From: Flavihumibacter soli
GTDB taxonomy: Bacteria; Bacteroidota; Bacteroidia; Sphingobacteriales; Sphingobacteriaceae
Assembly: GCF_010692725.1 (NCBI RefSeq)
Contig: NZ_JAAFZB010000096.1
Location: forward strand, 620,001-684,000
Direction of reading: 5' to 3'
Length of the DNA: 64,000 nucleotides
The position numbers were made by a program, and so were the translations under genes. Each line of letters starts with the position of its first letter. Positions within the stretch are counted from its first letter, which is position 1. The notes beneath the pieces are model-generated. The model made no database searches and was not told where the DNA came from. It saw only the letters and a program-made list of their open reading frames with translations. Shown one piece after another: positions 9,021 through 50,671 of this stretch.

Positions 9021-11407
9021 TATAATTCGATGATCACTCCTATTGTCGGGAGAATATTCCCGTTTTCATTATCTATTAATTTTGTCTTGTAACGTGCCGT
9101 ATCAGCCGGATCATCCTGTGGCAAGCCATCAGCTGAACGGTCTAAAAGCAGTATAGGCTGCAGCTTATATTTATTATATGTCAGGTTTTGTATATCCAGA
9201 TAAACATTAAGGCTAAACTTCTGAAAGGGATATTTTTTGTCAACACGCAGATCTAACTGATGGAAGTTGCCTAACCTGTTTTCGTTCAGCTGGTCATAGT
9301 CCTGAATTCCCTGCGGATATACTGAGTAATTACTTTTAAGAGATGAGGTCTCAATATCATAAGGACTGTAAGGACTGCCGCCGCTCAATCTCAATTTAGC
9401 ACCGATCTCCCAGTTTTTTTTAAGCAGCTTGCCGCCAGTCATACTGACAATATAGCGCGTATCCCATGATGACGGCACATAAACGTCATTCTTATCCTGG
9501 AACTCGCTCTTGAAAAGAGTTAAGGCAAATATTCCGTAAAAACCCTTGTTCAGTCGCTGCTGAGCCAGGAACTCAGCTCCATAAGACCGCCCGATAGTAA
9601 AACCCGTTACAGGCCTGTTTCCAATAACTCCGAAGTCGGCACCCAAGTTCGCAAGCGGAATATCGTTTCCCAAAACATTAATGATCGGGTACTGATCGTA
9701 ATATTTATAGAACCCTTCCACTGTGAAGCGCGTGTTTTTCAGCGTGTTATATTCTAACCCGAGCACAACCTGGCTTGAACGAATATAATCCACCTCTTTA
9801 TTTAACAAAGGTCCGCTGGTTTGCGCCCGGTATCCCAGTACGGTATATGCCGGAAGCTGGTAATAAATCCCGGTATTGGCATTCACGCTTAGTTTATCAG
9901 TGAAATTGTACGAAGCTGAGATCCGCGGGGAAATAGTTCTGCTCAGGTCATTCATTCTGGCTGAGTAGGTATTGGCATCGGCCCTTAATCCGGCGGAAAT
10001 AACCAATTTCTCGCCGAACATCGAACGACTTACCTGGCCAAATAAACCATATTTAATAATGTCCAGTTCAGATGCGTATTCGGAGCTTCCGAAAGGTAGA
10101 ACAAACAACGAACTTGTGCTGTATGCGGCACTTTCAATCCCGAAACCGTAATTAATTTTGTATGCGCCCTCCTGGCTGTTGTTCTCAAACCGTAGCTTAT
10201 TCTCAATTTCTTTCGATGAATAATCCAAGGTATTCAGCTTATTCTCATCGTTATCCTGGAATTTTTCAGCTCTGTTATCCAGATAGCTGCGACTTAAAAC
10301 AACAGTAGAATATCCCCTACTCCGGTAGTTTTTATAATTTGCTCCTATGGTATAGCTATCCTGCTCATTGACGGGAATGTTAGACAGGATATAGATGTTC
10401 TGTTCTGTCGGATCGGTATCGAAATTAAGCTTGAACCGGTCAACAGCCCCTAAACCCAGTAATGTTAATTCATTTTTAGAATTGAAGCGGGTCTTGATCT
10501 TGAACTGGTAATCCTGGTATGACGGCAGAAACGGCAAACCGATGATTTTGAATAAACCCTGGAGATAAGAGTAGCGGTAAGACGCAATGAAAGTGGTTTT
10601 ATCATTGAGCGGCCCTTCGAAAGTCGCGGCTGCATCACTGAAGCCGGCAGTTAACGATGCTGCCAGCTTTTCCTTGTTGCCGTCCTTTTGCTTGAACTCA
10701 AAGACAGAACTTAAACTGTTCCCCCGGTTAGCCGGGAAAGCTCCCGAATAAAAATCAACCTCGCGAATGAAGTCGACATTGATCAGCCCGACCGGCCCAC
10801 CGGACGATCCCTGGGTTGCGAAATGATTTATGTTTGGAATCTCCACCCCGTCGATATAGAACCGGTTTTCATTGGGTGCCCCGCCCCTGATGATGATATC
10901 ATTCCGAAAGCTAACCGGGGCTGATACGCCTGGTAAAGATTGAATGACCCTGGAGATATCACGGTTACCACCCGGATTGCGCTTTATTTCCGTTGAGCCA
11001 ATAGTTCTCAGGGATACCGGGCTTTCTACCGGCTTGATAAATACAGGAGTTCTGATACTTACTTCCTGGAGAGTGGACGCCTCCGTTTCTAATTCCGCAT
11101 CCACGAAAGATGTCCGGGAATTGCTGACCTGTATATCAAAAACACTTTTTGCTTTATATCCAACGCTTGAGAAACGGATATTGTAAACACCCGGCTTTAA
11201 GCCGCTGAACTTGTAATAACCCGTTGAGTCGGTAATCGTCGCCTTACCGATATCCGGCAAATTTACTGAGACTCCCGGAAGCGCCTGGTTTGTTAGTCCA
11301 TCAGTAAGCTTCCCGGTTATAATACCTGTTGATAACTCATTGACTTGAGCCTCAACCACAGGGCTGATACCAAAGATGAAAATTAAAAGTCCTATATATC
11401 TTTTCAT
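9020..11407 (-). CDS. TonB-dependent outer-membrane receptor with CarboxypepD_reg domain
   Basis: An outer-membrane active transporter. The ATG at 11405-11407 gives a 795-residue protein with a signal peptide (MKRYIGLLIFIFG to VEAQ); an upstream TTG would add six residues and is less likely. The order is signal peptide, a CarboxypepD_reg-like beta-sandwich (around residues 28-110, with TDSTGYYKFSGLKPGVYNI), a plug domain (SLPGVSAPVSFRNDIIIRGG, ENRFYIDGVEIPN), then a long beta-barrel. No SusD partner is nearby. The one-base overlap with hemH invites the idea of iron or haem uptake, but the substrate is not shown by sequence. Confidence 0.88.
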   Translation of the reverse strand: MKRYIGLLIFIFGISPVVEAQVNELSTGIITGKLTDGLTNQALPGVSVNLPDIGKATITDSTGYYKFSGLKPGVYNIRFSSVGYKAKSVFDIQVSNSRTSFVDAELETEASTLQEVSIRTPVFIKPVESPVSLRTIGSTEIKRNPGGNRDISRVIQSLPGVSAPVSFRNDIIIRGGAPNENRFYIDGVEIPNINHFATQGSSGGPVGLINVDFIREVDFYSGAFPANRGNSLSSVFEFKQKDGNKEKLAASLTAGFSDAAATFEGPLNDKTTFIASYRYSYLQGLFKIIGLPFLPSYQDYQFKIKTRFNSKNELTLLGLGAVDRFKLNFDTDPTEQNIYILSNIPVNEQDSYTIGANYKNYRSRGYSTVVLSRSYLDNRAEKFQDNDENKLNTLDYSSKEIENKLRFENNSQEGAYKINYGFGIESAAYSTSSLFVLPFGSSEYASELDIIKYGLFGQVSRSMFGEKLVISAGLRADANTYSARMNDLSRTISPRISASYNFTDKLSVNANTGIYYQLPAYTVLGYRAQTSGPLLNKEVDYIRSSQVVLGLEYNTLKNTRFTVEGFYKYYDQYPIINVLGNDIPLANLGADFGVIGNRPVTGFTIGRSYGAEFLAQQRLNKGFYGIFALTLFKSEFQDKNDVYVPSSWDTRYIVSMTGGKLLKKNWEIGAKLRLSGGSPYSPYDIETSSLKSNYSVYPQGIQDYDQLNENRLGNFHQLDLRVDKKYPFQKFSLNVYLDIQNLTYNKYKLQPILLLDRSADGLPQDDPADTARYKTKLIDNENGNILPTIGVIIEL

Positions 11408-20799: not shown

Positions 20800-20810
20800 T
20801 TAGTATGGTA

Positions 20811-20850
20811 ATAGGATAATGTGCTAATACGATAATGTGGGAATGTGGGA
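20811..20850 (+). repeat. Low-complexity repeat, GATAATGTG type
   Basis: Imperfect copies of the words GGATAATGTG, CGATAATGTG and GAATGTGGG follow one another between the yebC-like stop and the DUF2442 start. They resemble the repeat upstream of pdxJ (63334-63395) in style. Confidence 0.6.
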
Positions 20851-20911
20851 AAGTTTAGGTAATAATTTCATCCCTTAATATCCGATTACCAATTAATCGA
20901 AGAATCAAATC

Positions 20912-45401: not shown

Positions 45402-45524
45402 ATGAAGTATTTTAACATGAGCCACGAAATACTAGAGTTCTCCAAGCTGATCGACCAGCAGTTCGATTGCCCGGATGAACCGGCGGGAGGTTTTTTCTCC
45501 TTCCTGTTCCGTCTTTTTAATTGA
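45402..45524 (+). CDS. Possible 40-residue protein of unknown function
   Basis: ATG 45402 opens a 40-codon frame ending at TGA 45522-45524. The product starts MKYFNMSHEILEF, has an acidic middle (DQQFDCPDEP) and a hydrophobic end rich in phenylalanine (FFSFLFRLFN), which could lie at a membrane. A second ATG is six codons in. A promoter-like element just upstream supports transcription. No known family was recognised, and frames of this length also occur by chance. Confidence 0.35.
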   Translation: MKYFNMSHEILEFSKLIDQQFDCPDEPAGGFFSFLFRLFN

Positions 45525-45590
45525 TCTTTCCCTGCGCACTTTCTTCACCTAAAGAAAGTATGTGCGCTCCTGCGCGCTATTTTGAGGATC

Positions 45591-45763
45591 AAAGAGCAAA
45601 GAACAAGGAGCAAAGAGGCGTGACATCCTATTCCCTATCTCAAATCCCAAATCTTATATCTAATTTTGCCGGCTGAAAGCTCTTGGAGCAAGGACGAAGG
45701 AGAAGTTTCTCCACATCTTCCATCTCAGTCTCAAATCTCATATCTAATATCTCACATCTAATT
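45591..45763 (+). repeat. Stacked low-complexity repeats upstream of rlmD
   Basis: Three parts: AAAGAGCAAAGAACAAGGAG-like words at 45591-45620; CTATCTCAAATCCCAAATCT with TATATCTAAT at 45634-45664; and CAGTCTCAAATCTCATATCT with AATATCTCACATCTAAT at 45724-45761. The last block ends next to the rlmD start codon. The word TCTCAAATCTCATATCT also occurs in the same orientation directly upstream of aroK. Confidence 0.7.
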
Positions 45764-45764
45764 A

Positions 45765-47222
45765 ATGAAATTTTCACCCGACAAAAAATTCCTCCAAAAT
45801 ATACAGGTTATTGATATCGCCGAAGAAGGCAAAGGCATAGGCAGGTCCGACGAGATGGTGATCTTTATTGACAAAGCAGTTCCCGGCGACCTTGTCGATG
45901 TGGAAGTGATGCGCCGGAAGAAAAAATTTTACGAGGCCCGCGTTAAGCAGATCGTTAAACCTTCAGAGCATCGTACAGAACCTTTTTGCCAGCACTTTGG
46001 CGCCTGCGGCGGATGCAAATGGCAGCATATGAGCTATGAGGCACAGCTGGTATTTAAACAAAAAAGTGTGACCGATGCCCTGCAGAGGCTTGCTAAAGTT
46101 GACGTTAGCAGTACCGAGACTATCCTGCCCTCAATAGCCACCCGCTATTACCGGAATAAACTCGAATACACGTTTTCCGATAAACGCTGGCTCACCGACG
46201 AAGATATGGCCAATCGTGCCGATGCAGATCTGGGAATGAATGCGCTCGGTTATCACATTCCGGGCCGCTTTGATAAGATCCTGGACATTGAACACTGCCA
46301 TTTACAGGCTGATCCTTCAAATGATATCCGCAATTCGCTACGCAGCTTTGCCCTGGAACAAGAGATTTCTTTCTATGATCTGAAAAATCATCACGGTGCC
46401 CTGCGAAACCTGATCATTCGTAACGCCACCTCCGGCGAACTGATGGTGATTGTCGTATTCGCCTACCCGGATGAAGACCAGGTCAGTAAGGTTATGCAAT
46501 TCCTTAAAGAGGGATTTCCGCAAATCACCTCCCTGCTTTATATCATTAACCAGAAGAAGAACGACACCATTTTCGACCAGGACATACAAGTCTATAACGG
46601 CCCTGATCATATCTTCGAAAGCATGCCGGCCGGGAAGCCCGGCAACCCGCCACTAAAATTTAAGATCGGACCTAAATCTTTTTACCAGACAAACTCTGAC
46701 CAGGCATATGAGCTGTATAAAATTGCCCGTGACTTTGCCGGCTTTAAAGGTGATGAACTTGTATACGACCTTTATACCGGTGCCGGTACCATTGCCAACT
46801 TCGTGGCTGCGGATGTGAAGGAAGTTATCGGTGTTGAATATGTTCCAACAGCAATTGAAGATGCTTACATCAATTCCGACATAAATAACATTGCCAACAC
46901 GAAATTTTTCGCAGGCGATATGAAAGATGTATTGAATGCTGAATTTGTCGCTACTCATGGCAAACCCGATGTTGTGATAACCGACCCGCCAAGGGCAGGC
47001 ATGCATGCGGATGTGGTACAACGCCTGTTAGAGATGGAAGCACCAAAGATTGTATATGTAAGCTGTAACGCCGCCACACAGGCCCGGGACATTGCATTAC
47101 TCAAAGAGAAATACGATGTCAGCCGTATCAGGCCGGTTGATATGTTCCCCCATACCCAGCATGTTGAAAATGTAGTACTCATGACCTTAAATACTACTGA
47201 TCGTTCACCGGAAATTCTTTAA
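45765..47222 (+). CDS. rlmD: 23S rRNA (uracil-5-)-methyltransferase, RlmD/RumA type
   Basis: A SAM-dependent methyltransferase making 5-methyluridine in RNA. 485 residues: N-terminal TRAM domain (DIAEEGKGIGRSDEMVIFIDKAVPGD), an iron-sulfur cluster site with Cys75, Cys81 and Cys84 (CQHFGACGGCKW) and a fourth cysteine in DIEHCHLQ, then the SAM fold with YDLYTGAGTI, TDPPRAGMH and the catalytic VYVSCNAATQARD. RlmD (U1939) is the usual annotation in this phylum; RlmC-type specificity cannot be excluded from sequence. The leader is made of repeats that reach to the start codon. Confidence 0.92.
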   Translation: MKFSPDKKFLQNIQVIDIAEEGKGIGRSDEMVIFIDKAVPGDLVDVEVMRRKKKFYEARVKQIVKPSEHRTEPFCQHFGACGGCKWQHMSYEAQLVFKQKSVTDALQRLAKVDVSSTETILPSIATRYYRNKLEYTFSDKRWLTDEDMANRADADLGMNALGYHIPGRFDKILDIEHCHLQADPSNDIRNSLRSFALEQEISFYDLKNHHGALRNLIIRNATSGELMVIVVFAYPDEDQVSKVMQFLKEGFPQITSLLYIINQKKNDTIFDQDIQVYNGPDHIFESMPAGKPGNPPLKFKIGPKSFYQTNSDQAYELYKIARDFAGFKGDELVYDLYTGAGTIANFVAADVKEVIGVEYVPTAIEDAYINSDINNIANTKFFAGDMKDVLNAEFVATHGKPDVVITDPPRAGMHADVVQRLLEMEAPKIVYVSCNAATQARDIALLKEKYDVSRIRPVDMFPHTQHVENVVLMTLNTTDRSPEIL

Positions 47223-50122: not shown

Positions 50123-50632
50123 CTACTTAGCGGGCAAATCCAGGTAAGCGGCCAGCTTTTCGGCGGTAAGATCCAGTCCACTGACAATCACCTTCGCCCT
50201 CCGGTAGAACCCTTCGCGGGAAGCTAACTTTTCTGTGATAAATGCAATCATCTCTTCCTCATTAAGTCCATTGAGCAAAGGCCTGTCCCCTTTTGAGTTC
50301 TTCAGACGGCTTGCCAGTGCTTTAGGTTCCATATGCAGGTAAACCACTTTACCCTCCCTGTTCATCCATTCCATATTATCGTGATAGCAGGGAGCGCCAC
50401 CTCCGGTTGCAATAACCGTGTTTTCGCTAAACCTGGTTTGCTGTAGAACATCTCTTTCAAAATCCCGGAATGCTGCTTCCCCGTGCCGGCTGAAGTATTC
50501 CGGGATTTTCATTCCAGCTTCTTTTTCGATCAGCTTATCCAGGTCGACAAAGTCATATTGAAGGTAGGTCGCCAGCCTTTTCCCGACCGTACTTTTGCCG
50601 CTGCCCATAAATCCGGTTAGGAAGATCTTCAT
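50123..50632 (-). CDS. aroK: Shikimate kinase
   Basis: Phosphorylates shikimate in the aromatic amino acid pathway. 169 residues: Walker A GFMGSGKST (7-15), the shikimate-binding DLDKLIE, REAAFRDFE-like EAAFRDFERDVL, the GGGAP motif and RPLLNG. Length fits. Directly upstream of the ATG is a run of ATCTCATATCT-like repeats (50637-50671) in the same orientation as those upstream of rlmD. Confidence 0.94.
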   Translation of the reverse strand: MKIFLTGFMGSGKSTVGKRLATYLQYDFVDLDKLIEKEAGMKIPEYFSRHGEAAFRDFERDVLQQTRFSENTVIATGGGAPCYHDNMEWMNREGKVVYLHMEPKALASRLKNSKGDRPLLNGLNEEEMIAFITEKLASREGFYRRAKVIVSGLDLTAEKLAAYLDLPAK

Positions 50633-50636
50633 GAGA

Positions 50637-50671
50637 AAAGATATGAGATATGAGATTTGAGATATGAGATC
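50637..50671 (-). repeat. ATCTCATATCT-type repeat in the aroK leader
   Basis: Read on the minus strand, ATCTCATATCTCAAATCTC and further copies of ATCTCATATCT run to within a few bases of the aroK ATG. The 17-base word TCTCAAATCTCATATCT is shared with the rlmD leader. Confidence 0.75.

Follow-up and report, generated by a model that had tools for sequence, protein, structure and literature searches.

Handed seven-base-pair arrays between genes of Flavihumibacter soli and its relatives, sampled by a word shared between the rlmD and aroK leaders

Results

Heptad arrays at the rlmD and aroK leaders

The window analysed here (the whole stretch of 64,000 nucleotides of the Flavihumibacter soli genome) carries rlmD and aroK on opposite strands, each preceded by tandem repeats of a seven-base unit (Table 1). 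The two genes were identified with protein family models, TIGR00479 for rlmD (338 bits, cut-off 184) and NF010555, a shikimate kinase model, for aroK (score 182, cut-off 180). A 17-base word, TCTCAAATCTCATATCT, which the first-pass annotation had reported in both leaders, is indeed found there exactly (45729-45745, plus strand, and 50646-50662, minus strand) and nowhere else in the window, and did not appear in any of 100 shuffles of the window. Both copies read into their own gene, and the arrays that contain them stop close to the start codon, 5 bp away at rlmD and 6 bp away at aroK, as had also been noticed; the aroK array is also close to the gene upstream of aroK, at 13 bp from its stop codon. 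An 18-base form of the word holds exactly at aroK only, its first base differing at rlmD. Allowing up to three mismatches, this form has eight matches in the window, all in the two leaders, where 0.10 would be expected.

The rlmD leader had been described as made up of the shared word, which is not the case: it is a mixture that begins with an array of a different, purine-rich heptad and continues with two ATCTC-type arrays, the first of which overlaps at its end a TAATTTTG box (45661-45668). A scan for the sigma-70 consensus before rlmD gave no match, Rfam gave none in the window at gathering thresholds, and the rlmD gap of the window is without a strong palindrome (best score 18; the threshold used elsewhere was 22). 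Upstream of rlmD there is also a short ORF (45417-45524, plus strand) of 35 aa, beginning MSHEILEFSKLIDQQFDC. Relatives of this ORF (MSREI..LSxLIDExFDF, 18-36 aa) occur in 14 of 17 rlmD leaders of the genus, and it may possibly encode a conserved small protein.

Table 1. Features of the rlmD and aroK leaders, in window coordinates
Feature	Position	Strand	Description
Purine-rich heptad array	45587..45617	+	CAAAGAG type, G-rich on the plus strand
C-rich degenerate heptad array	45627..45664	+	ATCTC type
C-rich heptad array of rlmD	45729..45759	+	ATCTCAN, with the 17-base word
rlmD	45765..47222	+	23S rRNA uracil(1939)-C5 methyltransferase; TIGR00479 above cut-off
aroK	50123..50632	-	Shikimate kinase; NF010555 above cut-off
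Heptad array of aroK	50639..50670	-	ATCTCAN, with the 17-base word

The word is oriented to genes, not to their starts

We searched the whole 4.44-Mb genome for the 18-base word with up to two mismatches and obtained 71 matches, 37 on one strand and 34 on the other; a reversed control word had none. The matches form 40 clusters, 38 of them intergenic and 2 inside called genes. The first-pass annotation had judged the orientation of the word to be non-random, and this is borne out genome-wide, as 36 of the 38 intergenic clusters read into the nearer gene edge. It had further proposed a role in the start of transcription or translation, and had named equal numbers downstream of genes as the outcome that would speak against this. 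That is the outcome of the count: within 20 bp ahead of the word there are 15 stop codons and 15 start codons (within 20 bp behind it, 2 stops and 1 start). Read on the opposite strand, the word stands directly after stop codons (e.g., at L033, L038, L044 and L058). The supposed specificity for start codons is thus wrong; the word is oriented to genes as blocks. Of the alternative suggestion, repeated expansion at 5' ends, the expansion is a fair description and the restriction to 5' ends is not.

Of the 60 genomes searched, 40 contain the word (F. soli included) and 17 contain the reversed control word, which is itself a period-7 word. Repeating the test in four other genomes (G041, G022, G033 and G001), we counted 45 clusters outside called genes, of which 35 read toward the nearer gene edge, a weaker bias than the 36 of 38 seen in F. 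soli; 15 further clusters lie inside called genes, 10 of these in G041. A count that is independent of gene calls gave a uniform picture: wherever matches on opposite strands neighbour each other within 300 bp, in five genomes, they stand in the order GAGAT then ATCTC (17 of 17). G041, which belongs to another family of the same class, also has a long ATCTCAT run (G041:C50:12778-12925).

Period-7 arrays form a genome-wide class

The 17-base word exemplifies a large class of tandem 7-bp arrays in intergenic DNA, a class that is defined by period and layout and not by sequence, and that is present in this bacterium and its relatives at both gene ends, often as mirror-image pairs. In 400 kb taken at fixed places of the genome, the 46 kb of gaps hold 23 period-7 arrays, compared with 3 in 353 kb of coding DNA and none in shuffles, while the other periods from 4 to 13 account for 0 to 5 arrays in the same gaps. 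In gaps, lag identity shows minor peaks at 7, 14, 21 and 28; coding DNA has no peak at 7, 14 or 28, and its signal at lag 21 belongs to the codon period of 3. A further 400 kb, from two relatives, yielded 70 arrays at period 7 and 56 at period 14, with no other period from 4 to 15 exceeding 5. The units themselves are diverse, with 148 consensus units among the 251 array chunks of all samples, and arrays of various units also occur at several loci of Pedobacter, Mucilaginibacter and Sphingobacterium among the 80 rlmD neighbourhoods that we examined in relatives.

In the Sphingobacteriaceae loci, period 8 comes next after period 7 (13 versus 19). Period-8 arrays of the GATAATGT and TAATGTGC types were observed at 20809-20851 and at L075:9706-9838 and 10703-10900, some of them as palindromes. 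At another locus (L231:15655-15811, in G041), four short, near-perfect heptad arrays with differing units follow one another, three purine-rich and then one pyrimidine-rich.

Arrays follow a rule of handedness and crowd at gene edges

Taking handedness as the sign of G minus C, we formulated the rule that an array is G-rich on the top strand near the left gene and C-rich near the right gene. Gene edges were taken from a simple dicodon gene caller, in samples that are stretches and not whole genomes. Among 176 intergenic arrays from ten sets, 140 follow the rule, 30 are reversed and 6 are ties. This count includes the sequence in which the rule was first seen; it excludes G041, G051, G056 and G039, where many arrays fall inside called genes and the gene caller is probably poor, and G002, G005, G009, G013, G015 and G016, which have 0 to 1 arrays. 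Arrays lie within 25 bp of a gene edge in 120 of the 176 cases, against a mean of 80 under random placement in the same gaps, and at this distance 102 follow the rule, 13 go against it and 5 are ties. The rule-following arrays comprise 27 at 5' edges, where 3 do not follow, and 75 at 3' edges. In another set, 19 intergenic arrays divide into 14 with the rule, 4 against and 1 tie, and 16 arrays are inside called genes of G041, G051, G056 and G039; a small further set of 9 arrays has 7 with the rule and 2 against. Gaps free of arrays are skewed in the same sense, but only weakly (0.10-0.12 at 5' edges and 0.03-0.05 at 3' edges). No array of the 176 matches the quadruplex motif (G3+N1-7)x4.

Inverted repeats scoring at least 28 occur in 53 of 491 gaps (1 when shuffled), and the arms of these strong repeats have a period of 7, with identities of 0.415 at lag 7 and 0.428 at lag 14 as compared with 0.25-0.30 at other lags. 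Heptad arrays often pair into imperfect palindromes, and in 51 of 55 untied cases the 5' arm is the G-rich one and the 3' arm the C-rich one, whatever the orientation of the genes. In the first set the 5' arm was G-rich in 25 palindromes and C-rich in 1 (n=27), and in sequence that had not been used to form the rule the ratios were 15 to 2 (n=19), 10 to 0 and 1 to 1; exceptions thus number 1 in the sample of 27 and 2 in that of 19. Inverted repeats without heptads have no handedness (26:28, 14:13 and 16:20). Given this palindrome layout, the C-rich strand tends to be the one that leads into the flanking gene, at starts and stops alike. Period and handedness are constrained; sequence is free.

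Selection at start codons, passed on by inverted copying, was considered as the origin of this polarity and rejected, because heptad palindromes are also found in convergent gaps (10 of 27; 4 of 19), which contain no start. With regard to an origin in the supply of stops, arrays at 3' edges without a stop in their sense strand follow the rule in 8 cases versus 3, with 2 ties, in what is a small sample. TAG is found at 6 of 13 array-capped stops versus 77 of 371, which suggests that arrays may supply some stops. We found no trace of directional growth toward the gene, unit identity being 0.810 in the gene-side half and 0.822 in the far half (58 arrays, p 0.56).

Arrays differ between relatives

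We compared the rlmD leaders of 16 genomes of the genus, leaving out 3 of the 19 with an rlmD match (G011, G012 and G017) because a contig end cuts the leader or the gene. Arrays are present within 330 bp before rlmD in 4 of the 16, each with its own unit, namely ATCTCAN and CAAAGAG in F. soli (G000), TTGCTAA in G006 (a 101-bp array), CTACTTC in G018, and GTATCAG/ATATGAG, further up, in G003; the other 12 have none. Since relatives have other units or no array at this place, a sequence-specific role at the rlmD start is unsupported, and the variation of the letters between species under a constant layout likewise argues against a start signal.

In the rlmD leaders (L183-L195 among them), the TAATTTTG box, a putative promoter element, is separated from the ATG by 6 nt in 12 of the 16 genomes, a spacing that suggests an rlmD mRNA that is leaderless or nearly so in these. 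In F. soli the box is 96 nt from the ATG and the last array lies between the two; in G006 an array is likewise located between a similar box and the ATG, and in G018 and G003 the array is upstream of the box. G015 has its box ~68 nt from the ATG and no heptad array. The rlmD leader appears to have been lengthened in F. soli, G006 and G015, with heptads in two of these, and given the longer leader of G015, such growth needs no arrays.

Orthologous gaps of two relatives were compared as well. No array is present in 89 of the 118 gaps, whose lengths differ by a median of 9 bp; 13 gaps are filled in both species (median difference 40 bp) and 16 in one only, and the filled gap is the longer one in 14 of these 16 (median +52 bp). 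At four orthologous gaps (G018 54283, 59168, 85783 and 97131), G018 and G003 each have a palindrome, with arms that differ. Some array-free counterparts of filled gaps are nearly closed (25, 5 and -4 bp versus 197, 97 and 193). Between G019 and G010, which are about 91% identical over longer matches, some arrays are identical and others are changed or present in one genome only. Whole-unit differences are visible in single gaps of this pair, and 2 of its 12 gap indels of at least 5 bp are multiples of 7 in the alignment.

Discussion

Heptameric repeats have been described in Xanthomonas (GGGAATC) and Nostoc (GGGGA(C/T)T), also written as GGGNATC heptads, by Rehm et al. 2015, who considered quadruplexes (PMC4692102). 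In these repeats the G-rich strand is the non-coding one upstream of genes and the coding one downstream of stops, X. campestris has 70 cases of two heptad sites in convergent (inverted) order, length and sequence vary extensively among relatives, and 83% of the Xanthomonas repeats are also found in the same gene context. The arrays reported here resemble them in their tandem 7-bp unit, in their intergenic position close to a gene edge, in the edge-and-strand rule (102 versus 13, with 5 ties), and, as in Xanthomonas, in convergent pairs that are G-rich and then C-rich (51 of 55 palindromes; 17 of 17 word pairs). They differ in having no G-tract unit with quadruplex potential (0 of 176), in not having one consensus unit per genome (148 units in 251 chunks, over all samples) and, unlike the 83% shared context of Xanthomonas, in a unit that changes or is missing between relatives. 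As no array matches the motif, the edge-and-strand rule needs no quadruplex.

Other known repeats share some of these properties. TAACTGA heptamer direct repeats were reported by MacGregor 2015 (PMC4679880) in Beggiatoaceae, Cyanobacteria and five Bacteroidetes, with other heptamers in some Bacteroidetes; they too are seven-base, intergenic and frequently located a few bases ahead of a start, but most sets are directed at a start codon (147 of 170, with 12 directed at a stop), whereas starts and stops are equal (15:15) in our count. Mrazek et al. 2007, as cited in PMC4679880 and PMC4692102, described long simple sequence repeats of bacteria in which 7-nt units predominate and proposed slippage; our arrays agree in both the predominant unit and the explanation, and the strand-and-edge rule seen here is absent from that work as so cited. 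REP (PMC3733652) and MITE (PMC4596501) palindromes are likewise intergenic, imperfect and present in many copies, but they share sequence, whereas our arrays share only period and handedness and no terminal or palindromic sequence common to the copies was found. Among titles and abstracts, which cover the subscription literature thinly, we found no unit-free heptad rule for Bacteroidota.

The explanation that we favour, with a probability of about 0.5, is that the arrays arise by slippage in 7-nt steps and by fold-back copying and are tolerated outside genes, as mutational filler and not as a start signal. An array would be born and extended through replication slippage of about 7 nt per step, and fold-back template switching would place an inverse copy on the other side of the same gap, leading to a unit common to both arms. 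Selection would then bar arrays from coding sequence, 7 not being a multiple of 3, and tolerate them in the gaps as far as the edge codon of the gene. A longer rlmD leader, like other effects on single genes, would be a by-product, and the handedness would come either from the copying step or from selection. In favour of slippage and fold-back copying are the dominance of period 7, the 148 units in 251 chunks, the greater length of filled gaps (14 of 16), the G018 and G003 gaps that are palindromic with different arms, the unhanded non-heptad repeats and the 15:15 count. Against it stand the few multiple-of-7 indels between G019 and G010 (2 of 12) and the lack of any trace of directional growth. 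Nor does slippage account for the direction of the G-rich strand, which leads away from genes in 140 of the 170 untied arrays.

A sequence-independent copying in 7-nt steps, producing mirror-image caps in the gaps, their G-rich strand pointing out from the genes on either side, may account for a layout conserved across phyla, whether through an unnamed enzymatic activity (e.g., one that adds purine-rich tails to break ends, with fold-back copying) or through selection on handedness. We put this forward tentatively, as a possibility worth naming though short of probable. Since Xanthomonas and Nostoc are reported to have the same layout built from unrelated units, it would be the layout, and not the sequence or a G-quadruplex, that is conserved.

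The strict handedness, the C-rich strand that reads into genes at both edges and the pairing of arms that is maintained while their letters change could also reflect a function, with the G-rich-then-C-rich palindrome working bidirectionally, in RNA or DNA, as a hairpin or transcription insulator. It might limit antisense or read-through transcription entering the gene, its C-rich, G-poor RNA resembling a Rho loading site, or serve as a bidirectional terminator. We regard such a function as rather unlikely, because the palindromes occur whatever the orientation of the flanking genes, even in divergent gaps, because most gaps of the same genomes do without arrays (89 of 118 orthologous gaps have none), and because pairing of the arms would mask a C-rich loading site. 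Handedness in any gene orientation is predicted directly if purine-rich 7-nt tails were added to both 3' ends of an intergenic break and then joined into a G-rich left and a C-rich right arm, and the nearly closed array-free counterparts fit this as well. Still, a unit common to both arms requires an extra assumption, and Ku, found in 6 of 20 genomes of the genus, bears no relation to array abundance: G015 and G005 have Ku and no arrays in 80 kb each, and G001, G019 and G010 have arrays and no Ku. Break-end tailing is accordingly a distinctly unlikely origin, and Ku/NHEJ as the maker of the arrays is disfavoured by this distribution. F. soli itself encodes Ku (G000:C88:6127-6660), whose occurrence in the genus is patchy.

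Insertion of a mobile palindromic element of MITE or REP type would account for many copies of one word and for large differences in gap length (e.g., a 97-bp versus a 5-bp gap), yet the arrays have no common sequence beyond period and handedness, as the number of units attests, and the palindromes of two species at one site have different arms; we consider this very improbable. Least credible of all, to the point of being nearly discounted, is a sequence-specific signal for the start of transcription or translation at rlmD, aroK and other genes. Arrays at 5' edges do obey the orientation rule (27 to 3 within 25 bp), but so do 75 at 3' edges, relatives carry another unit or none before rlmD, and as a general role it is refuted by stop codons being as frequent as starts.

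If this picture of the arrays holds, a repeated word found just before start codons in such genomes may be filler that is equally frequent after stop codons, which is a warning for the reading of such words. The G-quadruplex would be removed as a necessary explanation of the bacterial heptad edge-and-strand rule, and the rule would become a general, testable question, namely what causes the G-rich strand of 7-nt arrays to point away from genes.
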